A DNA stretch of 29,772 nt. It comes from a virus. Position 1 is the stretch's first letter; every line of letters begins with the position of its first letter. Of the stretch, positions 4,131 to 29,772 are shown in pieces. The position numbers were made by a program, and so were the translations under genes. The stretch covers positions 1 through 29,772 of IMG/VR virus record IMGVR_UViG_3300040809_001246. One strand, given 5' to 3'. Under the pieces are notes generated by a model. It did no database searches. It saw only the letters and a program-made list of their open reading frames with translations, and was not told the DNA's origin.

Positions 4131-4210
4131 ACGTGCGAAAATTGCATGTTTTTAGGCGTACTGCCCTGAACTTTTGGTGTATATTTTGTATTTTGGTGCG
4201 GTGAAAGCCT

Positions 4211-4283
4211 TGCGCGGTAGTTCAATTGGCAGAACACGAGACTAACGGTTCTTGACGTGCAGGTTCGAATCCTGTCTGCGTAG
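4211..4283 (+). tRNA. tRNA-like gene with an 8-nt anticodon loop
   Basis: A full cloverleaf can be drawn. The acceptor stem TGCGCGG/CTGCGTA has 7 pairs, two of them wobble. The D arm is GTTC/GAAC around AATTGGCA, and the T arm is GCAGG-TTCGAAT-CCTGT. The anticodon stem CGAGA/TCTTG encloses CTAACGGT, which is eight bases, not seven. A seven-base loop breaks the stem. Read conventionally the anticodon is AAC; a four-base anticodon is also possible. CCA is not encoded. The flanks GTGAAAGCCT and AGGCTTTTCAC are complementary and extend the stem outward. It shares acceptor, position 8-9 and loop details with the second tRNA, so the two are related. It may be a frameshift-type tRNA or a decayed one. 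Confidence 0.75.
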
Positions 4284-4306
4284 GCTTTTCACTAAACAAC
4301 AAATCA

Positions 4307-6247: not shown

Positions 6248-6319
6248 TGCGCGGTAGTGTAGCTGGCAACACGCAGGACTCATGATCCTGAACCGGAGGT
6301 TCAAATCCTCCCTGCGCAA
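6248..6319 (+). tRNA. tRNA with CAT anticodon (Met, or Ile if the C is modified)
   Basis: Complete cloverleaf: acceptor TGCGCGG/CTGCGCA with one G-T pair, TA at 8-9, D arm GTGT/ACAC, anticodon stem CAGGA/TCCTG around CTCATGA, a four-base variable loop, and T arm GGAGG-TTCAAAT-CCTCC. The discriminator is A and CCA is not encoded. The anticodon stem lacks the three G-C pairs of initiator tRNA, so elongator Met or Ile2 is more likely. The acceptor start TGCGCGG is the same as in the tRNA-like gene 2 kb upstream. Confidence 0.88.
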
Positions 6320-6332
6320 CTAAACACAACGA

Positions 6333-8697: not shown

Positions 8698-9165
8698 TTA
8701 AGCCCCTCCCGGCATTAGGTTTTCTAGTGGGTCGTGCTCCGGTTCACCTTCATCGAGGAAGGCTACCATATCCTGACGGCTTTTAGGGTCGCCGCCTATC
8801 ATTTTGCTGAGTTGGCGCATTTCTTCATTGGCTTTTTTGAAGATGCTGAACTCCGGACTGATATTACGGGTGCCGTTATCGAACTCCTGAATCAACCCTA
8901 GCTTGTTCATCATCTGCACCGCCTTATTGCGGCTATCTACTGCAATCGCATAGCTGACGATGTGAAAGGTATCAATGTCCAGTAGGATGTCTTTGTCTTT
9001 CAAGTGGTCGCAGATGCGGCAGAATAGCACCATCTGCTCATCGGTTAGATTGATGCCTGGATCGGGATAGCCTTCGTATTGTGATTTTTGGAGCTGCTTG
9101 TCTTCGCTTGCCCTATATGTGCCCTTCTTTTTCCTGTCAGCAGCGGGCTTCCTTGTTCGTGCCAT
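8698..9165 (-). CDS. Terminase small subunit, P27-like
   Basis: Recognises the packaging site and recruits TerL. 155 residues: a basic N-terminus (MARTRKPAADRKKKG), then helices including LTDEQMVLFCRICDHLKDKDIL and AVQMMNKLGLIQEF, and NISPEFSIFKKANEEMRQLSKMIGGDPKSRQ, which is the typical core of P27-family (Terminase_4) small subunits. Its position directly before TerL supports the call. A 96-bp gap follows toward the next gene upstream. Confidence 0.85.
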   Translation of the reverse strand: MARTRKPAADRKKKGTYRASEDKQLQKSQYEGYPDPGINLTDEQMVLFCRICDHLKDKDILLDIDTFHIVSYAIAVDSRNKAVQMMNKLGLIQEFDNGTRNISPEFSIFKKANEEMRQLSKMIGGDPKSRQDMVAFLDEGEPEHDPLENLMPGGA

Positions 9166-12084: not shown

Positions 12085-12555
12085 TTACCACACCAGCATA
12101 TCCCTAACCGCCTCAAAATCTGCAATGCTGCGAATGATGAAGTAGTCGAAGCCGAGGCTGTCAACAGTTTTTTGCCACTTCTTTTGTACTACACTTTGGT
12201 TTTTGCCTGGCAGCTTGACTTCTAGGTAGGCAACACGTCCACATAGGTCATCGTCTAAGTAGAGGTACGTCAGGTCTGCAACGCCCGCCACAACGCCCTG
12301 CCCTTTCATGATCGCGCCTTTCTTGCGGCTGTGAGAGTTGTTGTTGTTGTGATATAGCCTACCGCGTTCGTCTTTGTAGGTATTCCAGTGGTGCATGAAT
12401 ATGCGCTGTTGCAATGCTGCTTCCGATAGAGTTTCGTCACCTGGCTCGTAGCCGTAGTTAAGGGCTTTGGCGGGTATTACTAGCCCTTTGTTATTCATCA
12501 TTACCGACTTAGATATCTTGCAGTAATATGTCTCGTATGGGTATTTGATTATCAT
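12085..12555 (-). CDS. VRR-NUC nuclease
   Basis: 156 residues. The PD-(D/E)XK fold of the VRR-NUC family is clear in the second half: GVVAGVADLTYLYLDDD supplies the aspartate, GRVAYLEVKLPGKNQS the E-x-K, and VVQKKWQKTVDSLGFDYFIIRS the following Q and helix. The N-terminal helix SEAALQQRIFMHHWN contains the upstream acidic/Q residues of the family. Phage VRR-NUC proteins are thought to act on branched DNA in replication or recombination. Its ATG overlaps the stop of the small gene upstream, so the two are coupled. Confidence 0.87.
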   Translation of the reverse strand: MIIKYPYETYYCKISKSVMMNNKGLVIPAKALNYGYEPGDETLSEAALQQRIFMHHWNTYKDERGRLYHNNNNSHSRKKGAIMKGQGVVAGVADLTYLYLDDDLCGRVAYLEVKLPGKNQSVVQKKWQKTVDSLGFDYFIIRSIADFEAVRDMLVW

Positions 12556-12695
12556 TTCCGTTCTTTTTGCTCCACATACGCAATCAGTAAATCAAACGCC
12601 TGCCCGATATAGGTAGGATTTGGCATTGGGTTCTGCCCGCCTCTGCGCCAGATTTGGTAATCTTTAATGATTTGGAGTGCTGTTTGGATGCTCAT
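12552..12695 (-). CDS. 47-residue phage protein, unknown
   Basis: Short gene with clean ATG start and TGA stop overlapping the VRR-NUC start (ATGA). Its sequence includes IIKDYQIWRRGGQNPMPNPT and IGQAFDLLIAYVEQ, a pattern (helix, WRRG, PMPNP, helix) shared by many tiny phage proteins found near replication genes. Function unknown. A GC hairpin with a T-rich tail lies 20 bp upstream of the start. Confidence 0.75.
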   Translation of the reverse strand: MSIQTALQIIKDYQIWRRGGQNPMPNPTYIGQAFDLLIAYVEQKERK

Positions 12696-12714
12696 CAGGT
12701 TTCTTTTTCAAAAT

Positions 12715-12736
12715 GCGAAGGTGGCACGCCCTTCGC
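12715..12736 (-). other. Leader hairpin before the 47-residue gene
   Basis: On the minus strand GCGAAGG/CCTTCGC with an 8-nt loop, followed by ATTTTGAAAAAGAAACC and the ATG. Same layout (hairpin, short T run, A-rich leader, start) as at other starts in this window. Confidence 0.45.
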
Positions 12737-12815
12737 TGCTATATATTCAACAAATCATCAAACGAGGTTAAAAAATTGGGTTCAAAATATCCCTGCCGTG
12801 CCGCAGGGGTTAGTC

Positions 12816-13175
12816 TTAGATCGGCTTCACTTGCTCCTTCAGGAAGCTTTGCTGCACGCCGTTGCTGAACTTCACATCAATAAGACCGTAGCTGCTGATT
12901 CGCTTAACGACACCTGCGCCTTTAGGAGTGCTAACCACATCCTCAAGGTTGATGGTCTGATTAATCTTCTTCAGGCGCTTGCGAGCGTTGTCCCGTTTCT
13001 GCTTGCGTTTTTTTGGGTCTGCCTCGTTGTCCTGTTCGCGGATCCATTTTCGCGCTCGCTGTAGGGCTGTCACCTTATCAAGAGATGTGGTTGCCGTCCG
13101 GTATAGCTCTTTTCTGTAGTGCGTCACTGCGCCGTACCATTCGCCGTTAGATGCTTCAATTGCTGTTGGTTTCAT
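12816..13175 (-). CDS. Basic protein with C-terminal KOW/SH3-like barrel
   Basis: 119 residues from the ATG at 13175 (MKPTAIEASNGEWYGAVTHY); a longer frame from 13232 would overlap the end of the neighbouring gene. The middle is a strongly basic helix (PKKRKQKRDNARKRLKKI). The end, VVSTPKGAGVVKRISSYG followed by VKFSNGVQQSFLKEQV, has the turn and strand pattern of a KOW or SH3-like barrel. A nucleic-acid binding role is plausible but not proven. Confidence 0.68.
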   Translation of the reverse strand: MKPTAIEASNGEWYGAVTHYRKELYRTATTSLDKVTALQRARKWIREQDNEADPKKRKQKRDNARKRLKKINQTINLEDVVSTPKGAGVVKRISSYGLIDVKFSNGVQQSFLKEQVKPI

Positions 13176-17470: not shown

Positions 17471-19990
17471 ATGAACTATCAAGAATTTTTAAAAGGGAAA
17501 GTTGTCATTGCCGAAGAATTTGGTATTGACACAGGTGGGATAGAGTATTCAGACATGCTATTCCAGCACCAAAAGGATATTGTTAACTTCTGCCTAAAAG
17601 GCGGCAGGCGAGCGATCTTTGCCAGCTTTGGGCTTGGAAAAACTTTCATGCAGCTCGAGCTTGCAAAGCAGGTCATATCCGAAACTGGAAAGCCTTTTTT
17701 AATTTGCTGCCCTCTTGGAGTTTCAGGCGAATTCAAAAGAGACAATGAAAAACTAGGTACAGGGCATACAATAACTTACATAACCGATACAGACAGTATT
17801 CCCTCTGAAATTGAGCCGCAGATATACCTTACTAATTATGAGCGAGTAAGAAAAGGCGATATTGATGCTGAGACATTCGGAGGCGTTAGTTTTGACGAAG
17901 CATCTATTTTACGTAACCTGAAAACTAATACCACTAACATGGTATTGAAGTATTTCAGAAAAGTCAAATACCGCTTTGTAGCTACTGCAACGCCTACTCC
18001 TAACGACTACATCGAGATCCTGAATTATGCCGATTATCTCGGCGTAATATCTCGGGGGCACGCGCTTACCCGTTTTTTTCAGCGTGACAGTACGAAAGCT
18101 GGAAACCTGAAGCTTTACCCTAATAAAGCGAAAGAGTTTTGGCAGTGGGTGTCCACTTGGTCTGTATTCATCAACACGCCTGCCGACCTTGGATATGAAG
18201 ATACAGGATATGACCTTCCACCTTTGAAGGTATCTGAGCATCGTATAAACTACTCAAGCGATGAGCCGCAATATGATGAACACGGCAATTTGATACTCAT
18301 TAAGCAGAAAGCAAAAGGCTTAAAAGAATCAAGCCGGGAAACTCGAGAGACTGTTGAGATGAGGTGTGAAAAAGCCTTAGATGTTGCTGCCAATGATTGC
18401 ACTGGCAGAGCTATATTTTGGTGCTTGCGCAACTCTGAACAGGATTACATTGCAAGAAAGCTAAAGCAGCAAGGCTACAAGGTAGCAAGCGTACATGGCT
18501 CTTTAAAGAACTCTGAAAAGGAAGATATGCTGATTGGATTTAGCGAAGGGCAGTATGACTACCTTGTAACTAAGCCCAAGATTGCAGGCTCCGGCTGCAA
18601 CTTCCAAGATGCTGCTTATGAATCTATCTTTGTCAGTATTGATGACAAGTTCAACGATTTTATACAGGCGATGCACAGGGTTTACCGCTTCGGGCAAAAA
18701 AACGAGGTAACGGCCCATGTAGTGTACACCGAATATCAAGACCGTACATTTGCTAACCTCATGCGCAAATGGGAACAGCACAAGCAGCTTCAGAAAGAAA
18801 TGATCTCCCTAGTAAGGGAGTACGGACTTAATTCAGAACTAATAAAATCACAAATGGAACGTCAAATATTTGCAGGAGGAGCAAAGCGCACAATAGGCAG
18901 CGCAACAGTTTACAATAATGATACTGTAATTGTCCATCAGGATAAAGATGAGATGCCAGACGATAGCATTGACTTTTACATTACCTCGATACCGTTTGGA
19001 GATCATTACGAATATTCTGACAATTACAACGATTTCGGGCATAATCACGGAAATGACAAGTTTTTCGAGCAGATGGATTTTATTATCCCTGAAATGTTAA
19101 GATGCCTAAAGCCTGGAAGAGTTGCCGCTATTCATGTGAAAGACCGCATCCGTTACAGCTACCAGAACGGCACGAGTTTCACAACTATCAGCGATTTTTC
19201 AGGGCAGACTGTCACGGCATTTGAAAAGCACGGTTTTTATCTTATTGGAAAGATTACAGTAACGACAGATGTTGTTGCTGAAAACAATCAGACCTACCGG
19301 TTAGGATGGACAGAGCAATGCAAGGATTCCAGCAAGATGGGCGTTGGCCTGCCTGAATACGTCTTATTGTTCAGAAAGGCACCTACGCACAGCGATAACT
19401 CCTATGCTGACAAACCTGTAACACACTCGAAAGAAGAATACACAAAAGCCAGATGGCAGTTAGACGCCCATGCTTATCACAGGTCCAGTGGCAACAGGCT
19501 TTTGACCGGCGATGAGCTGCGCACAATGGAGGTGAAGCATATTGTAGCGGCATGGAAGAAACATAACACGCAAAGTGTTTACGACTTTAACGAGCATCTG
19601 TCGATTTGTGAAGAAATGGACGAATTAGAAAAGCTTTCTTCTACATTTATGACTTTGCCGCCTCATTCTAACAATGAGATGGTATGGACTAATGTAAGCC
19701 GTATGCGGACACTTAACGCTAATCAGGTGCAAAAGAAGAAAGAAAAGCACATCTGCCCTCTCCAATTTGACATTATTGACAGGCTCATTGAACGTTATTC
19801 AATGCCGGGCGAGGTTGTTTGCGACCCTTTTGGAGGCATTATGTCAACCCCTTACCGGGCAATGGCAATGGACAGAAAGTCTATTGCCATTGAGCTGAAT
19901 ACAGAATATTTCAATGATGGCTGTTATTATCTCAATGCGATGGACTACAAAATGAACGTACCAACATTATTTGACTTCGTAAATGCTTAA
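17471..19990 (+). CDS. SNF2-type helicase fused to a DNA methyltransferase
   Basis: 839 residues with two enzymes. Residues 1-460 are a superfamily 2 helicase/translocase: Walker A FGLGKT (53-58), FDEAS as motif II (141-145), ATATPTPND as motif III (171-179), helicase C from about 310 (VHGSLKN, GSGCNF) and motif VI MHRVYRFGQ (401-409). Residues 475-835 are an amino-methyltransferase with the order motif IV then motif I: SIPFGDHYEY (506-515) where most enzymes have (D/N/S)PP(Y/F), a middle region GLPEYVLLFRK, and VCDPFGG near 783-789 for S-adenosylmethionine. This fusion recurs in phages and would protect or remodel phage DNA. Whether the methyltransferase half is active with SIPF is open. Confidence 0.9.
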   Translation: MNYQEFLKGKVVIAEEFGIDTGGIEYSDMLFQHQKDIVNFCLKGGRRAIFASFGLGKTFMQLELAKQVISETGKPFLICCPLGVSGEFKRDNEKLGTGHTITYITDTDSIPSEIEPQIYLTNYERVRKGDIDAETFGGVSFDEASILRNLKTNTTNMVLKYFRKVKYRFVATATPTPNDYIEILNYADYLGVISRGHALTRFFQRDSTKAGNLKLYPNKAKEFWQWVSTWSVFINTPADLGYEDTGYDLPPLKVSEHRINYSSDEPQYDEHGNLILIKQKAKGLKESSRETRETVEMRCEKALDVAANDCTGRAIFWCLRNSEQDYIARKLKQQGYKVASVHGSLKNSEKEDMLIGFSEGQYDYLVTKPKIAGSGCNFQDAAYESIFVSIDDKFNDFIQAMHRVYRFGQKNEVTAHVVYTEYQDRTFANLMRKWEQHKQLQKEMISLVREYGLNSELIKSQMERQIFAGGAKRTIGSATVYNNDTVIVHQDKDEMPDDSIDFYITSIPFGDHYEYSDNYNDFGHNHGNDKFFEQMDFIIPEMLRCLKPGRVAAIHVKDRIRYSYQNGTSFTTISDFSGQTVTAFEKHGFYLIGKITVTTDVVAENNQTYRLGWTEQCKDSSKMGVGLPEYVLLFRKAPTHSDNSYADKPVTHSKEEYTKARWQLDAHAYHRSSGNRLLTGDELRTMEVKHIVAAWKKHNTQSVYDFNEHLSICEEMDELEKLSSTFMTLPPHSNNEMVWTNVSRMRTLNANQVQKKKEKHICPLQFDIIDRLIERYSMPGEVVCDPFGGIMSTPYRAMAMDRKSIAIELNTEYFNDGCYYLNAMDYKMNVPTLFDFVNA

Positions 19991-25520: not shown

Positions 25521-25687
25521 AAGACGAAGCATTCGAAATCCGGCACTTGCGAATGGAAATCAAGCGCGAAAGCGCCTGTGCATGTCATGCTGAGGACATG
25601 GGCAATCATGAGCTTGCAAAAGCCTATCGGGAGGGGTTAAAGGGTAAGAAAAAGAGGCTGAAAGAGTTAGTCGAGCAGCGACAGTAG
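25517..25687 (+). CDS. Short charged helical protein, unknown
   Basis: 56 residues: MKDEAFEIRHLRMEIKRESA then CACHAEDMGNHELAKAYREGL and a lysine-rich end. Reads as two charged helices with a CxC. Start overlaps the previous stop (ATGA). Last gene of the overlapping chain; a 170-bp non-coding stretch with a promoter follows. Confidence 0.62.
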   Translation: MKDEAFEIRHLRMEIKRESACACHAEDMGNHELAKAYREGLKGKKKRLKELVEQRQ

Positions 25688-25794
25688 GAGCGCTGGTGCC
25701 TTTTCTCTTCAGTTACAAACCCTTACCAATCCTGTCTATTCCGTGTGCGGCCTAAAATAAATATACATTAAGTATAAATTAATTAGGGTAAAAC

Positions 25795-25825
25795 TTGCGC
25801 GGTAAATATACTTGGTGTATATTTG
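25795..25825 (+). promoter_or_regulatory. Bacteroidota-type promoter before the cassette region
   Basis: TTG, 20 bp, TATATTTG: exact consensus. Transcription would begin near 25832, with a short leader (ACAAAAGCAATTAGA before the start) shared with the gene at 15330. No terminator with a long T run is seen between here and the first cassette elements, so this promoter could serve several of the genes that follow. Confidence 0.85.
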
Positions 25826-25857
25826 TAACATCAATAACAACAAAAGCAATTAGAATC

Positions 25858-26226
25858 ATGGACGCAGTAAGTATAATACTTGAGCTTAGAGAAAAAGGTT
25901 ACGAACTATCAGATCCTTTTTCTCACACCACAAAAGCTGGTGTATCGCTTGTAAAAAGAAGCGTTAGATTTAACACAAATAAAGGCTGGTCAAGCCTTGA
26001 ATTTGTGTTTGAGTCAGAACTATATCTGTCTTACACAGAGAAGATGGACTCATGTTCTGATGATGGGCTCAGAGCAGAGTATAAAGATGTAAACCTTTCT
26101 AAAAAAGAGGTTTATGGTACTCCTACCATTCAAAATGGAAGGATAGGCCGCTACTCTGCTTACAATCAACACCAAGCTCTTAAGTACTTTAGAGAAGAAA
26201 ACGTAGAAATCCTTCCTAAAGTATAA
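25858..26226 (+). CDS. Unknown protein at the start of the cassette region
   Basis: 122 residues from the ATG at 25858; the frame is open further upstream, but that part contains the promoter. MDAVSIILELREKGYELSDPF begins with a helix; the rest mixes strands (RSVRFNTNKGWSSLEFVFES) and a charged end. A-T rich, and unlike the replication genes to its left in base use. No family recognised. Confidence 0.7.
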   Translation: MDAVSIILELREKGYELSDPFSHTTKAGVSLVKRSVRFNTNKGWSSLEFVFESELYLSYTEKMDSCSDDGLRAEYKDVNLSKKEVYGTPTIQNGRIGRYSAYNQHQALKYFREENVEILPKV

Positions 26227-26233
26227 CAATCAC

Positions 26234-26260
26234 AGCCCCTGCGATAATATCAACGGGGCT
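26234..26260 (+). other. Intercistronic hairpin with conserved 15-nt loop, copy 2
   Basis: AGCCCC/GGGGCT encloses TGCGATAATATCAAC and is followed by AATTCTTTTATT and ATG. The loop matches the leftward copy at 11685-11709 at 13 of 15 bases, both differences being C/T changes. GAT and ATC inside the loop can pair. Confidence 0.72.
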
Positions 26261-26272
26261 AATTCTTTTATT

Positions 26273-26458
26273 ATGGATCAGATAATCAAAATATACCTAG
26301 AAAACCAAACCGAAAAAGCTAATCGGCTTGGTAAACATAGGCAAACATTAATCGCTTGGAAACGCAATCCTTCTCAGGCTAATCTTAATCTTATCGAAGA
26401 AGACCTTAAAGCGCTTCTTCTTTTGATTCAAGAATACAAGGCCGCAAATGCCATGTAA
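26273..26458 (+). CDS. Small HTH-like protein, unknown
   Basis: 61 residues: YLENQTEKANRLGKHRQTLI then AWKRNPSQANLNLIEEDLKALL. The pattern resembles a compact Cro/XRE helix-turn-helix with a second support helix. The stop codon TAA is itself part of the first attC-like R-box (TAAC) of the next element, as often seen for integron cassettes. Confidence 0.65.
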   Translation: MDQIIKIYLENQTEKANRLGKHRQTLIAWKRNPSQANLNLIEEDLKALLLLIQEYKAANAM

Positions 26459-26650
26459 CGGACAGTGCTACACGCTGTACAGGTCTGCCTTCGGGCTGAG
26501 TATGGTGTGTAGCATAGTGTTGTAGGCCTGGATAATTTTAATAGTAAGCCCGGAAAATATGGAGGGCGGCTGACTATAACAACGAGCATCATACCAATAT
26601 TCATGAGTTACTTTTAACCGGGCGGCAGGCAGCGGTAAAAATCAATAAAA
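26454..26650 (+). repeat. Structured intergenic element 1 (attC-like hairpin plus leader domain)
   Basis: Left part: TAAC (26456), 7-nt spacer, GCTACAC (26467) ... GTGTAGC (26507), 5-nt spacer, GTTGTAGG (26519); the top of the stem has a GCC-TTCG-GGC tip. Right part: GCCC-GGAAAATATGGA-GGGC (26548-26567), GAGCATCA, AATATTCAT, CCGGGCGGCAGGCAGCGG, then ATG 132 bp after GTT. The architecture is shared by the four copies that follow. Confidence 0.8.
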
Positions 26651-27493
26651 ATGAAAACAGTAACATCAATCTCAGGCGGAAAAACATCTGCTTATCTTGC
26701 TACTCATTATTCTTCTGATTACAATGTATTTTCGCTTGTAAGAATTGAGGATAAAGGTGCCGCGTTTCCAGATAAGAGAATCAGAAAAATGGTTGAGGAT
26801 AAGATACAAAAGCCATTTATTGCTACTGCTGAGGATGATACCATCATTTATACTATCCTTGATCTTGAGCAACATATCGGTAAAAAAATACACTGGGTAT
26901 CAGGTGATACTTTTGATGCTGTTATCCGACAGAAAGGTGGCTATCTTCCAAATAAAATGCAACGGTTCTGCACCTCTGAAATGAAGCTAAAACCTATATT
27001 TTATTGGTGGGCAGAAACAATAGGTGAACCTATAATAATGCAAATAGGCTACCGTGCAAATGAACAACGGCGGGCAAATACTATGTTATCGAAATGCAAT
27101 GAAAACGGGCTACTTGAATACAAAGCAACGTTTAGCCAACACAAAAACGGAAATCGAAAATGGGAATCTATTGAATGGCAAAAACCATCTTTCCCATTAA
27201 TTGATTATGCTGTTTTTCGTGACCAGATAGAAAATTATTGGGCAGGACAAACCGTTCGTTTTGCTGATTACAACAACTGTGTTGGCTGCTTCCATCGCAA
27301 TCCATTGTTTCTTCGGAAGATGTGGGATAAACATCCTCAAAAGATGGATTGGTTTGCATCAAAAGAAACAGGGTCAAAAAAACCTCAGTGGAGGGCTGAT
27401 ATTTCTTATTCAAAAATAAAGCGGCACCGGATGCAGTTTGAGTTAGAATTATCTGAATTTTCGGAATGTGACTCTGGGTACTGTGGATATTGA
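26651..27493 (+). CDS. PP-loop ATPase, PAPS-reductase-like family
   Basis: 280 residues. SISGGKTSAYLATHYS (from residue 6) holds the PP-loop SGGKTS that binds the ATP phosphates. NKMQRFCTSEMKLKPI near 107-120 matches the RxC-T-x-x-x-K stretch of phage PAPS-reductase-like proteins; NNCVGCFHRNPLFLRKM near 210 is a CxxC with basic residues, and the end SECDSGYCGY adds two cysteines. Such proteins adenylate or thiolate a substrate; relatives include IbrA, DndC and tRNA-thiolating enzymes. Here it is a stand-alone gene between elements 1 and 2. A role in nucleic-acid modification or defence escape is possible but not shown. Confidence 0.82.
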   Translation: MKTVTSISGGKTSAYLATHYSSDYNVFSLVRIEDKGAAFPDKRIRKMVEDKIQKPFIATAEDDTIIYTILDLEQHIGKKIHWVSGDTFDAVIRQKGGYLPNKMQRFCTSEMKLKPIFYWWAETIGEPIIMQIGYRANEQRRANTMLSKCNENGLLEYKATFSQHKNGNRKWESIEWQKPSFPLIDYAVFRDQIENYWAGQTVRFADYNNCVGCFHRNPLFLRKMWDKHPQKMDWFASKETGSKKPQWRADISYSKIKRHRMQFELELSEFSECDSGYCGY

Positions 27494-27496
27494 TTA

Positions 27497-27717
27497 TAAC
27501 TTATTAGCTGCCTGCCCTGGCATACACCGGCCTAGCTATGCGCAGTGCGACGTAGGAGCATGGCGTATGGCGAAATGGTGTGTGCAGTGCATACAAATAG
27601 TCATACGACGACCGACGATAGGAGGGAGAGACAAGAAACCCACAACGGGTATTACAATAACTGTTTCCTGTTTATTCAACGATGTGTAGAGCAGGGGCGA
27701 AGCAAATAGTAAAAATT
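27497..27717 (+). repeat. Structured intergenic element 2 (diverged copy)
   Basis: Begins just after the previous stop. Long stem GCATACACC (27520) ... GGTGTGTGC (27577) with an inner GCTATGCGC/GCGTATGGC arm and a 5-nt spacer on the 3' side; the R boxes at the expected places are degenerate. The right part keeps GACGATAGGA flanked by CC/GG and CCC-ACAA-CGGG-TATTA, aligned to the same places in the other copies. ATG follows 127 bp after the stem region. Confidence 0.65.
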
Positions 27718-27861
27718 ATGGTGACTAAAATACTAAAAAGCGGATACTGCAATTTGATAATGGCTTACTATGTTGATTACATAGATGATATTAATGGTAA
27801 GACACGGATTTATTTCGATTACATACATGAGCGAAATAAGTTTATATCTGATAATCAATAA
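27718..27861 (+). CDS. Small unknown protein between elements 2 and 3
   Basis: 47 residues: MVTKILKSGYCNLIMAYYVD then YIDDINGKTRIYFDYIHERN, aromatic and charged, looks like a small alpha-beta protein. It starts where the other cassettes start relative to their element and stops 78 bp before the next element's hairpin region. Base composition is A-T rich like the neighbours. Its size puts it near the limit, but the element spacing supports the call. Confidence 0.55.
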   Translation: MVTKILKSGYCNLIMAYYVDYIDDINGKTRIYFDYIHERNKFISDNQ

Positions 27862-27913
27862 TTTTTATTACGCACAATACTTATCTATGTTCAGTAGCTT
27901 ATTGAATATAGTT

Positions 27914-28129
27914 CTTCGCGCCCTGCGGAGCATTGCACACACCGTGCAGAGCTACACGCAGGGCAGGATCAGCGTTGGGTCGAGCGCCTTGTGTGTAGCG
28001 TGTAGTTAGGTACAGGCATACCAATAGATGCTCGGCTGGCGGACAATAGGGAGCCAGCTAAAGGAACCCTACTCGGGCATCAATCTTATTCATAGAATCT
28101 TTTCATCAGGCAAGCGAGTAATAAAGTAA
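27914..28129 (+). repeat. Structured intergenic element 3
   Basis: Left part: GTGCAGA (27944), GCTACAC (27951) ... GTGTAGC (27993), GTGTA, GTTAGGTAC (28005). The 5' R-box is degenerate (CACC), and GCCCTGCG/CGCAGGGC (27920/27957) offers an alternative stem. Right part: GCTGGC-GGACAATAGGGA-GCCAGC (28035-28058), CCCTACTCGGGCATCA, TTATTCAT. An ATG stands 125 bp after GTT but opens only a 22-codon frame. Confidence 0.78.
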
Positions 28130-28151
28130 ATGTTAAAGTTTACGAAAATAC

Positions 28152-28182
28152 TTGACAAAGTAAATAATATCACTTACATTTG
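28152..28182 (+). promoter_or_regulatory. Bacteroidota-type promoter inside the array
   Basis: TTG, 20 bp, TACATTTG: exact consensus, right after element 3. It drives the next two genes and possibly the cassettes downstream. Transcripts would start about 25 nt before the ATG at 28215. Confidence 0.85.
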
Positions 28183-28199
28183 TATCATCAGTTAATCAT

Positions 28200-28217
28200 T
28201 AAAACATTTACATCATG
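28200..28217 (+). repeat. 18-bp leader repeat TAAAACATTTACATCATG, copy 1
   Basis: Ends in the ATG of the acidic protein. Identical over 18 bp with copy 2 at 28472-28489, which ends in the ATG of the XRE gene. Confidence 0.8.
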
Positions 28218-28436
28218 ACTGTTTACAACGAAATCTTAGCACATTACGACAACAATCAAACTCGCAACCATTATAATAATACAGTTGCGGCAATGAGTGA
28301 TTCTGAAGGAGTAGAATCATATGATGATGCAGTAAAAAATATTGCTTCTGCTGTTCATGAGAATAACGGCAATTTAGATGATGCAATAGCAATGTATGAT
28401 AGTATGATTGCAAGTCTTCAGGATTACATCAACTAA
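28215..28436 (+). CDS. Small acidic protein, unknown
   Basis: 73 residues, acidic and rich in N, D, A and Y (MTVYNEILAHYDNNQTRNHY, then VKNIASAVHENNGNLDDAIA). Helical by pattern, soluble, no cysteine. It begins at the ATG of TAAAACATTTACATCATG, an 18-bp leader repeated at the next gene. Together with the following XRE gene it could form a regulator pair, but no toxin or antitoxin family can be named. Confidence 0.68.
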   Translation: MTVYNEILAHYDNNQTRNHYNNTVAAMSDSEGVESYDDAVKNIASAVHENNGNLDDAIAMYDSMIASLQDYIN

Positions 28437-28443
28437 ATCAAAA

Positions 28444-28472
28444 AGCCCGGTCTGGTCAATCCATTCCGGGCT
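28444..28472 (+). other. Intercistronic hairpin, 15-nt loop of another sequence
   Basis: AGCCCGG/CCGGGCT with the loop TCTGGTCAATCCATT, again 15 nt with an inner GG/CC pair and a TCT/ATT internal loop. It ends at the repeated leader of the next gene. Similar form but not the same loop as the copies at 11685 and 26234. Confidence 0.55.
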
Positions 28473-28489
28473 AAAACATTTACATCATG
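28472..28489 (+). repeat. 18-bp leader repeat TAAAACATTTACATCATG, copy 2
   Basis: Ends in the ATG of the XRE-type gene. Two identical leaders suggest a duplicated translation-start region that could bind a common regulator. Confidence 0.8.
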
Positions 28490-28699
28490 CCCAATTTAAG
28501 CCTTAAAGAATACAGAAACAAATACAACTATACTCAGTCTCAAATCGGCGAAATGTTAGACACCGTGAAACAGGTTGTCTACAAGTACGAAAAGGGGCAA
28601 ATCCCTTCTCCTGAGAAACTACTGTTGATGTTGAAAATGCCTCATGTCCAGGGCATCAACATCAATCTAAAAGGTGAGTTTTTCTTAATCACCAAATAG
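28487..28699 (+). CDS. XRE-family (Cro/CI-type) transcription regulator
   Basis: 70 residues. LKEYRNKYNYTQSQIGEMLDTVKQVVYKYEKGQIPSPEKL is a complete XRE helix-turn-helix (helices 1-4: RNKY, TQSQIGEML, KQVVYKYEKG). The last 25 residues (MPHVQGININLKGEFFLITK) are a short strand-rich end. Size and form fit a phage Cro-like regulator or the antitoxin of a toxin-antitoxin pair. Positioned before element 4. Confidence 0.86.
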   Translation: MPNLSLKEYRNKYNYTQSQIGEMLDTVKQVVYKYEKGQIPSPEKLLLMLKMPHVQGININLKGEFFLITK

Positions 28700-28710
28700 C
28701 GAGCGCTTGT

Positions 28711-28909
28711 ACCTAACGTGCAGAGCTACCCGCCGTACTGTTTAGGCCGAGCGTGGCGTATGGCGGGTAGCGTGTAGTTATACCTAGCGAAACCAATAAA
28801 TAGTCGGCTGCTGGAGGATGCGGAAGCAGCTAAAAAAACCAATACCGGGCATCCATATTTATTCATCATCGCCTATTCCTTTTGGCATGGGCGCATAAAT
28901 CAATTACAA
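28711..28909 (+). repeat. Structured intergenic element 4 (best-defined attC-like copy)
   Basis: TACCTAAC, 7-nt spacer GTGCAGA, GCTACCCGCC (28725), 27-nt variable top, GGCGGGTAGC (28762), 5-nt spacer GTGTA, GTTATACC (28777). The 10-bp stem is perfect. Then GCGAAACCAATAAAT, hairpin GCTGCT-GGAGGATGCGGA-AGCAGC (28807-28830), ACCGGGCATCC, TTATTCAT; ATG 133 bp after GTT. Confidence 0.84.
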
Positions 28910-29122
28910 ATGAAAAAGTTTCTTCCTCAGCTTGGTAAAAATTATCAGGTAGATCATCAAAACCGAATGATTGTTATTTGGCCATTTCAGCACCTAAAAG
29001 AAGCTGAGGTAAATGTTTTTATAGACGATGACTCTAACCTGCATATTAAAACACCTTATGATGAGCATGGCTTTGACGTTGAAAAGATATCAAAGGGGCA
29101 CATCAAAATTATTTACAAATAG
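28910..29122 (+). CDS. Small unknown protein between elements 4 and 5
   Basis: 70 residues: MKKFLPQLGKNYQVDHQNRM then IVIWPFQHLKEAEVNVFIDD and a beta-type end (GFDVEKISKGHIKIIYK). Looks like a compact alpha-beta fold. No signal, no cysteines. Exactly fills the space between two elements, so it is the cassette gene of that unit. Confidence 0.7.
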   Translation: MKKFLPQLGKNYQVDHQNRMIVIWPFQHLKEAEVNVFIDDDSNLHIKTPYDEHGFDVEKISKGHIKIIYK

Positions 29123-29136
29123 CGCCCTAGCTAGGG

Positions 29137-29310
29137 TATAACGGCTGGTGCATGCGCCGTTTTAATGGCGTATGCACTTGGTGTTAGGTACTGCGAAACC
29201 AGTAAATGGACAAGGCGGCGATAGCAAGCCGGGTGACTAAAACAATGGGCATCAAACCAATATTCATTATTCACATTCACCGGGCGACTGCCAGCGTAAA
29301 CAGCAATCAC
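29137..29310 (+). repeat. Structured intergenic element 5
   Basis: TATAAC, 6-nt spacer, TGCATGCGCC (29149) - GTTTTAAT - GGCGTATGCA (29167), 6-nt spacer, GTTAGGTAC (29183). The stem has one wobble. Then GCGAAACCAGTAAAT, GGC-GGCGATAGCAA-GCC (29214-29230), GGGCATCA, AATATTCAT, CCGGGCGACTGCCAGCG; ATG 128 bp after GTT. A 12-bp palindrome CCCTAGCTAGGG (29125-29136) precedes it. Confidence 0.84.
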
Positions 29311-29772
29311 ATGAAAAACTATACAATTCAAAGTATCCCATCAAAAACAGCATATCCTTTTTTGCTAAATATTCATTATGCAAAAAGAATACCGTCTATT
29401 AGTTTTTGTTTTGGGCTTTTTAAAGCGGCTACTCTTAAAGGAGTTTGTTGTTTTGGCACACCTGCATCTAGCCCGCTTCTAAAAGGTATAGCAGGCGATA
29501 AATGGGCACCTAATGTAATCGAACTAAATAGGCTCGTATTGATTGATAATGAAAAAAATTTAGCCAGCTACTTTGTTTCTAGGTGCCTGAAAAAACTACC
29601 AAAATCAAAGGTAGTAGTATCTTATGCTGATACTGGCATGAATCATGCTGGCTATGTATATCAAGCCTGTAATTTCATCTATACCGGTTTATCGGCCAAA
29701 AGAACAGACTGGAAAGTAAAAGGTAAAGAACATTTACATGGTCACACTATTGCAGATGAGTTCAGGGGTTTT
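29311..29772 (+). CDS. Mom-like DNA-modification protein (GNAT-type), 3' end missing
   Basis: 154 residues to the window edge, frame open. Matches the Mom family of phage Mu, which adds a carbamoylmethyl-type group to adenines and shields DNA from restriction: an N-terminal ISFCFGLFKAATLKGVCCFG strand pair, then NVIELNRLVLIDN, then the signature KVVVSYADTGMNHAGYVYQACNFIYTGL. The C-terminal part is cut off. Starts at the ATG that ends element 5. In the phage context it would modify phage DNA; the modification itself cannot be read from sequence. Confidence 0.85.
   Translation, partial: MKNYTIQSIPSKTAYPFLLNIHYAKRIPSISFCFGLFKAATLKGVCCFGTPASSPLLKGIAGDKWAPNVIELNRLVLIDNEKNLASYFVSRCLKKLPKSKVVVSYADTGMNHAGYVYQACNFIYTGLSAKRTDWKVKGKEHLHGHTIADEFRGF

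Follow-up and report, generated by a model that had tools for sequence, protein, structure and literature searches.

What kind of element separates the small genes at the right end of this phage genome, and do these genes move as cassettes? The stretch of DNA analyzed here (the window, 29,772 nucleotides of the virus record IMGVR_UViG_3300040809_001246) carries, between 26454 and 29310, five related structured elements, which an initial annotation had read as attC-like sites of an integron-type cassette array with folded-DNA sites in a phage. All five could be located, and the general proposal holds up: related phages gain, lose and move whole units, and in Freya and Danklef phages a recombinase gene lies beside the array. 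Judged from sequence comparisons, the end of the window is probably a cassette array carried by the phage and functioning in the manner of an integron whose cassettes are inverted. The window cuts this array before its constant 3' end, and the last unit is incomplete at 29772.

Along the genes, each element consists of a box R'' (ending in AAC or ACC), a stem, a box R' (starting with GTT or GGT) and a leader with a second hairpin. The leader, about 110-130 nt of each element and reaching up to the next start codon, is its second conserved part, and its hairpin frequently carries the loop GACRRTAGGA. A profile built from the five copies found further ones, with E-values down to 1e-39, in the relatives G002 and G003 (also L032 and L084; L084 below). 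The stems had been described as differing between copies while keeping their pairing, and this was borne out in 15 copies: 85% of cells were paired, 16 cells were changed on both sides compared to a shuffled mean of 5.5, and the covariation score of 0.353 was reached in none of 500 shuffles. The covarying helix and the spacers establish an imperfect hairpin whose unpaired spacers separate the box from the inner helix; folded one at a time, the copies reach only moderate energies (z -1.4 to -4.1). Comparison of the elements to Rfam matched no family, and a DNA BLAST of the region gave weak, chance-like matches in phages and nothing in plasmids. Relatives found through the RuvC-like gene (L100-L107) have no elements. 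Two sets of pattern matches were dropped: the leader pattern in L002, a 25-base match without element structure, and the stem pattern in bacterial genomes, where only 20-35 bases matched, resembling by eye a stretch of 16S rRNA. The loop GACRRTAGGA of the window's leaders (for example 27587-27719) was also seen in Polaribacter phage P12002L (L108 38838-38847 and 38901-38910), there also at a stem tip.

The boxes do not pair inside one element, as the initial annotation had assumed. Instead, R' of element n pairs with R'' of element n+1, with a mean of 9.47 out of 10 bases in 16 units from the window, G002 and L084. Across one stem the value is 6.22, permuted R'' boxes give 6.34 (sd 0.39), and none of 100,000 permutations reached 9.47. 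Unit by unit, the two ends of one cassette are mutually complementary, as expected for an integron. With about eight different box sequences present, descent from a single pair does not account for this pairing. In most unit types of these three genomes position 11 is G in R' and T in R'', which ends the 10-bp perfect pairing. Copies 2 and 3, previously considered degenerate and possibly inactive, use GGT/ACC in place of GTT/AAC; R' of copy 2, GGTGTGTGCA, pairs at 10/10 bases with R'' of copy 3, TGCACACACC, and the idea of dead copies was rejected. The mobile unit is the stem, the R' box, the conserved leader, one or more genes and the R'' box. Two pairs of stems are nearly identical (gE5/lE2 and wE4/gE3); within each pair R' and leader agree and R'' differs, and pairs with the same R'' have unlike stems. 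Some chassis of leader and tail hold different genes. Such chassis, together with the conserved leader hairpin, the covarying stem and the long-range pairing around each gene, would also suit a structured RNA, in which stems and leaders have a role in processing or terminating transcripts or in their translation, R' and R'' insulate genes in the mRNA, and units are moved by homologous or illegitimate recombination.

The ends of the arrays and the comparison of isolates bear on this alternative. G002 (48,345 bases) is effectively complete: about 127 bases are repeated near both ends, and the gene order shared with the window runs on across the joined ends. The array of G002 and L084 is flanked by a gene for 56 amino acids and an amidase gene, and a third relative, G004 (L083), has one cassette with a decayed 5' end in the same place. 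The last cassettes of G002, L084 and L083 are different, and all three end with R''AAC followed by the common constant sequence TACRYAACACCCGCAACCCCGTA. A constant insertion site at one array end is seen in the relatives G002, L083, L084, P12002L and Freya.

P12002L is among the phages for which attC clusters were reported and tested (PMC9892861), and its array has the same architecture as that of the window. In P12002S, whose flanks are 99.7% identical to those of P12002L, a methyltransferase unit (98.6% identical) is found at a different array position, with both ends at the point between R''AAC and stem; the array ends and other differences between the two phages resolve to this point too. 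The Polaribacter phages Freya_1 to Freya_10 come from one host strain, and their 'integrase' was taken as a sign of temperate potential (PMC8776804). Seven of these isolates were compared, showing that the backbone of 42.3 kb is 99.99-100% identical to Freya_1 while the arrays differ. All seven array ends are R''AAC joined to ACCCCTATAACAACAATAAG (R''AAC followed by ACCCC), and the sequences before this constant end are TGTTTACAAC (Freya_1 and Freya_2, from different cassettes), GTTACCAAC, CTACCAAC, TTGCTAAC (Freya_8 and Freya_10) and TTTACCAAC. An internal block is missing in Freya_8, with the joint TTTACAAC next to TTACATG, again at AAC. Of 21 distinct right-hand identity ends in Freya, P12002 and four Muminvirus phages (mymlan, tooticki, mumin, filifjonk), 14 fall within 5 nt after AAC or ACC, compared to about 16% of positions by chance; some of the remaining seven resemble alignment or gene-replacement ends. 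In AT-rich genomes our first unit scanner let too much through (P12002L gave 7 chained hits per shuffle) and the chain scanner also gave stray chains, so only units supported by position or isolate comparison were used. The Muminvirus phages, which infect Flavobacterium in the Baltic (L118, L162-L164), have methyltransferase-rich arrays of the window's kind and offer many isolates for exchange mapping.

Site-specific exchange at the GTT/AAC triplet thus occurs in related phages, on the AAC side: as mapped in P12002, Freya and the right-hand ends, the exchange point is AA^C of R'', and not the GTT of R' where it had been expected. A structured RNA would not lead one to expect different R'' boxes to meet a single constant sequence immediately after AAC, or near-identical isolates to differ by precise moves of units, and in Freya a recombinase gene lies at the constant end; we regard it as an improbable account of the array, and the leader may have an additional RNA role. 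The unit-specific inverted ends of 8-12 bp could recall transposon-like units with terminal inverted repeats of their own, moved by an unseen transposase. This is very improbable, because many different ends are joined to one constant site, a stem lies between every pair of units, no target duplication was seen by eye at the Freya and P12002 junctions, and no transposase is among the proteins scanned.

The polarity of the site was compared to chromosomal integrons. The best homologues of the Freya recombinase in 396 Bacteroidota genomes share about 33-38% identity with it, and at several of these loci the recombinase adjoins an array in which units pair over 9-10 bases and lie about 120 bases apart. 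The integron-like arrays of L157 (1103-8558), L158, L159 and L160 are chromosomal, and the 3' end of the recombinase gene faces the array. Four chromosomal enzymes of 345-347 amino acids were examined; three of four pass the cut-off of NF040815 and none passes that of TIGR02249. In the chromosomal arrays the longest open reading frame reads away from the recombinase end in all 15 units with a frame of at least 59 amino acids. In the phage arrays, by contrast, genes read toward the constant end in 22/22 units, opposite to the classical orientation away from attI. The longer spacer lies on the GTT side in five of five measurable chromosomal sites and on the AAC side in 21 of 22 measurable phage elements, with one tie; for these polarity counts units were hand-picked, and elements of one genome are not independent. 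Since exchange on the AAC side and a spacer asymmetry opposite to that of the Bacteroidota chromosomal integrons agree, the phage cassettes appear to be inverted relative to the site.

This polarity also bears on another reading of the elements, a cluster of attC sites lacking integron integrases (CALIN) with classical polarity, that is, ordinary attC sites exchanging at G^TT of R', units running from TT through gene, R'' and stem to G, and an occasional host IntI as the enzyme. In its favour, attC clusters have been found in phages before, and Qi et al. (2023; PMC9892861) reported that IntI1 recombines P12002L_attC2 into attI1; moreover, two R' boxes of the window match GTTRRRY. However, the constant array ends and the unit ends lie after R''AAC and not before R', the spacer asymmetry is the reverse of that in chromosomal sites, and several R' boxes lack GTT or RRR. 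In the window GTTGTAG, GGTGTGT and GTTATAC deviate from the consensus RYYYAAC/GTTRRRY, and only GTTAGGT (copies 3 and 5) fits. Classical polarity is therefore already disfavoured, and we consider it unlikely. As both this polarity and the box consensus fail, we class the array as an inverted variant of phage integron arrays and not as a canonical integron.

Which enzyme could act on these sites? In Freya an intact gene for a tyrosine recombinase of 271 amino acids starts just past the constant array end. Danklef_1 carries a truncated tyrosine recombinase gene directly after the array (L120 8248-8697), which has the same C-terminal domain as the Freya enzyme and has lost the N-terminal part, and the other Danklef phages retain the same coding stretch. 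Compared to NCBIfam models, the Freya enzyme is Xer/IntI-like, matching NF040815 over nearly its full length with 146 bits (cut-off 220) and TIGR02249 with 96.5 bits (cut-off 265). Its PDB matches are XerA-like and IntI4 enzymes (4a8e, E 2e-27), and the catalytic motifs HDLRHSF and GHKKTETTEIYAY were recognized by eye within the full-length family match. PF00589 proteins were found in all control genomes and in none of the window, G002, P12002L, P12002S and mymlan; Pfam scans of parts of the window and of G002 (proteins scanned in part) detected no other recombinase or transposase. Thus, in these phages the recombinase is either supplied in trans or of another kind, and for the window's phage it probably acts in trans. 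The earlier suggestion that an integrase might lie beyond the right edge of the window is correct for Freya, where it is exactly there, and fails for G002, the closest complete relative.

The sequences directly show the units and how they pair, where they are exchanged, the constant end, the position and homology of the Freya recombinase and the opposite spacer polarity, and the array with inverted cassettes might work as follows. The mobile unit would be C, stem, R', leader, gene(s) and R''AA, and we infer that it is excised as a circle, where the stem with R''AAC and R' on its two sides would fold into a single, completely paired site. A tyrosine recombinase of Xer/IntI type would bind the folded single strand and cut at AA^C in R'', which is the box next to the longer spacer. 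The 3' end of the array offers a constant site (AAC joined to TACRYAACACCCGC in the window's group, AAC joined to ACCCCTATAACAAC in Freya), and the unit would be inserted either there or at the site of another unit. In the window's phage the recombinase may come in trans from a host integron or a co-infecting phage.

Several observations weigh against this reading. The Freya recombinase stays below every curated IntI/Xer cut-off, and the window, G002, P12002L, P12002S and mymlan have no tyrosine recombinase, yet change is evident in some of their arrays. On its left side the array has a ragged rather than a site-specific boundary, and R'/R'' pairing in Freya units is weaker, as judged by eye only. 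In addition, Mantel tests of the stem against R', R'', leader and tail over all elements were not significant, so the linkage of stem to R' rests on the closest pairs and the isolate comparisons.

That attC clusters exist in phages, P12002L included, is already known; Qi et al. noted divergent directions in P12002L and regarded the phage sites as bacterial attC sites imported with off-target incorporation (PMC9892861). P12002L resembles the present system in its tandem small genes, methyltransferases among them, and in lacking an integrase. What this analysis contributes is a definition of the units, of their polarity, of the constant ends and of the exchange points, as well as phages whose arrays adjoin a recombinase gene. 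Apparently new are the inversion of the unit, the combination of a constant end and a phage recombinase, and the precise points of exchange. The chromosomal integrons of Bacteroidota (L157-L160) have in common with the phage arrays a homologous Xer/IntI-like recombinase, unit pairing over 9-10 bases, GCTAC/GTAGC stem arms and a constant attI, whereas gene direction and spacer asymmetry are reversed and the Freya enzyme is shorter (271 compared to 345-347 amino acids). With class 1 and other classical integrons the arrays share complementary cassette ends, the G/AAC core triplet, the constant insertion end and a folded site with unpaired spacers; they differ in that the phage cassettes are inverted, the boxes often deviate from GTTRRRY and no IntI lies above the curated cut-off. 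Phages of the CTX type insert their whole genome at dif through a folded single strand in a XerCD-dependent manner. A Xer-family enzyme and a folded single strand are proposed here as well, but single genes move within an array.

On balance, though by a small degree, we favour the broader view that Bacteroidota phages carry an integron lineage of their own, in which cassettes are turned round to suit the phage operon, the 3' insertion site is constant, and a dedicated short Xer/IntI-like recombinase is present in some phages and absent from others; virulent phages would then rely on a borrowed recombinase to trade anti-restriction genes with one another and perhaps with integrons of their hosts. 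This would provide a concrete site-specific mechanism for the mosaic accessory regions of phages, of which the isolate series show single steps, and would mean that genes need not be oriented according to the polarity of the site. Since the Freya isolates are the same but for their arrays, and both phage and host are in culture, cassette loss and insertion by a phage-encoded recombinase can be tested directly. Among Bacteroidetes proper, a single complete integron was named by IntegronFinder 2.0 (PMC9024848), and the present data point to chromosomal integrons in Bacteroidota with enzymes below the IntI cut-off.

The array of the window consists, as in G002, of tandem short cassettes, mostly with one gene each and all on the plus strand. 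The first unit (25668-26459) has a decayed 5' end, a leader remnant (about 25668-25860), one open reading frame ending at 26226, and a gene for 61 amino acids (26273-26458), whose stop codon is overlapped by R'' GCCATGTAAC (26450-26459). Compared to the last unit of G002, positions 25668-25860 match its leader at 83.5% identity and 26234-26459 match its end at 86.4%, and R' of that unit, GTTACATGGC, matches GCCATGTAAC. Stem 1 (26460-26518; spacers 5/3, helix 16 bp) is followed by unit 1 (26519-27528) with R' GTTGTAGGCC (26519-26528), leader, a gene related to 3'-phosphoadenosine 5'-phosphosulfate (PAPS) reductases (26651-27493) and R'' GGCATACACC (27519-27528), the boxes pairing at 8/10 bases. 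Stem 2 (27529-27576; spacers 6/5, helix 9 bp) precedes unit 2 (27577-27943), in which R' GGTGTGTGCA and leader are followed by a small open reading frame ending at 27861, a long conserved tail common to the window and G002 (8858-9004) and R'' TGCACACACC (27934-27943). After stem 3 (27944-28004; spacers 7/5 by eye), unit 3 (28005-28717) contains R' GTTAGGTACA, leader, a gene for 73 amino acids (28215-28436), a helix-turn-helix (HTH) gene (28487-28699; HTH_3, 6e-9) and R'' TGTACCTAAC (28708-28717), with 10/10 pairing. Stem 4 (28718-28776; spacers 7/5, helix 14 bp) is 95% identical to gE3 of G002, whose upstream R'' differs. Unit 4 (28777-29142) comprises R' GTTATACC, leader, a gene for 70 amino acids (28910-29122) and R'' GGTATAAC (ending at 29142), the first 8/8 bases of the boxes pairing. 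Stem 5 (29143-29182; spacers 4/4, helix 14 bp) leads to unit 5 (29183-29772, cut by the window end) with R' GTTAGGTACT, leader and a Mom-family gene from 29311 (PF25680 Mom, 4e-31; phrog_1384, 9e-46).

The cargo of the window thus comprises a PAPS-reductase-like protein, tiny unknown proteins, an HTH protein and a Mom-family protein, to which G002 adds a methyltransferase. Mom, methyltransferases, the PAPS-reductase-like protein and the tiny unknown genes suggest an exchange of anti-restriction and other accessory functions. The PAPS-reductase-like gene matches phrog_424 (1.8e-23), SspD (1.3e-13) and DndC (2e-4). Its copy in G002 (12153-12995; 81.6% DNA identity) lies outside the array, behind the amidase gene and without flanking elements, showing that genes can pass between a cassette and an ordinary position. 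Homologues of this 280-amino-acid gene in other phages (L005-L019) have no elements beside them, and only L005 has elements elsewhere. Outside the array, the window encodes a protein of 839 amino acids (17471-19990), in which a SNF2/helicase part is fused to an N6/N4 DNA methylase domain, and two tRNA genes, one at 4210-4285 with an unusual four-base anticodon call (aacg) and a tRNA-Met gene at 6248-6320.

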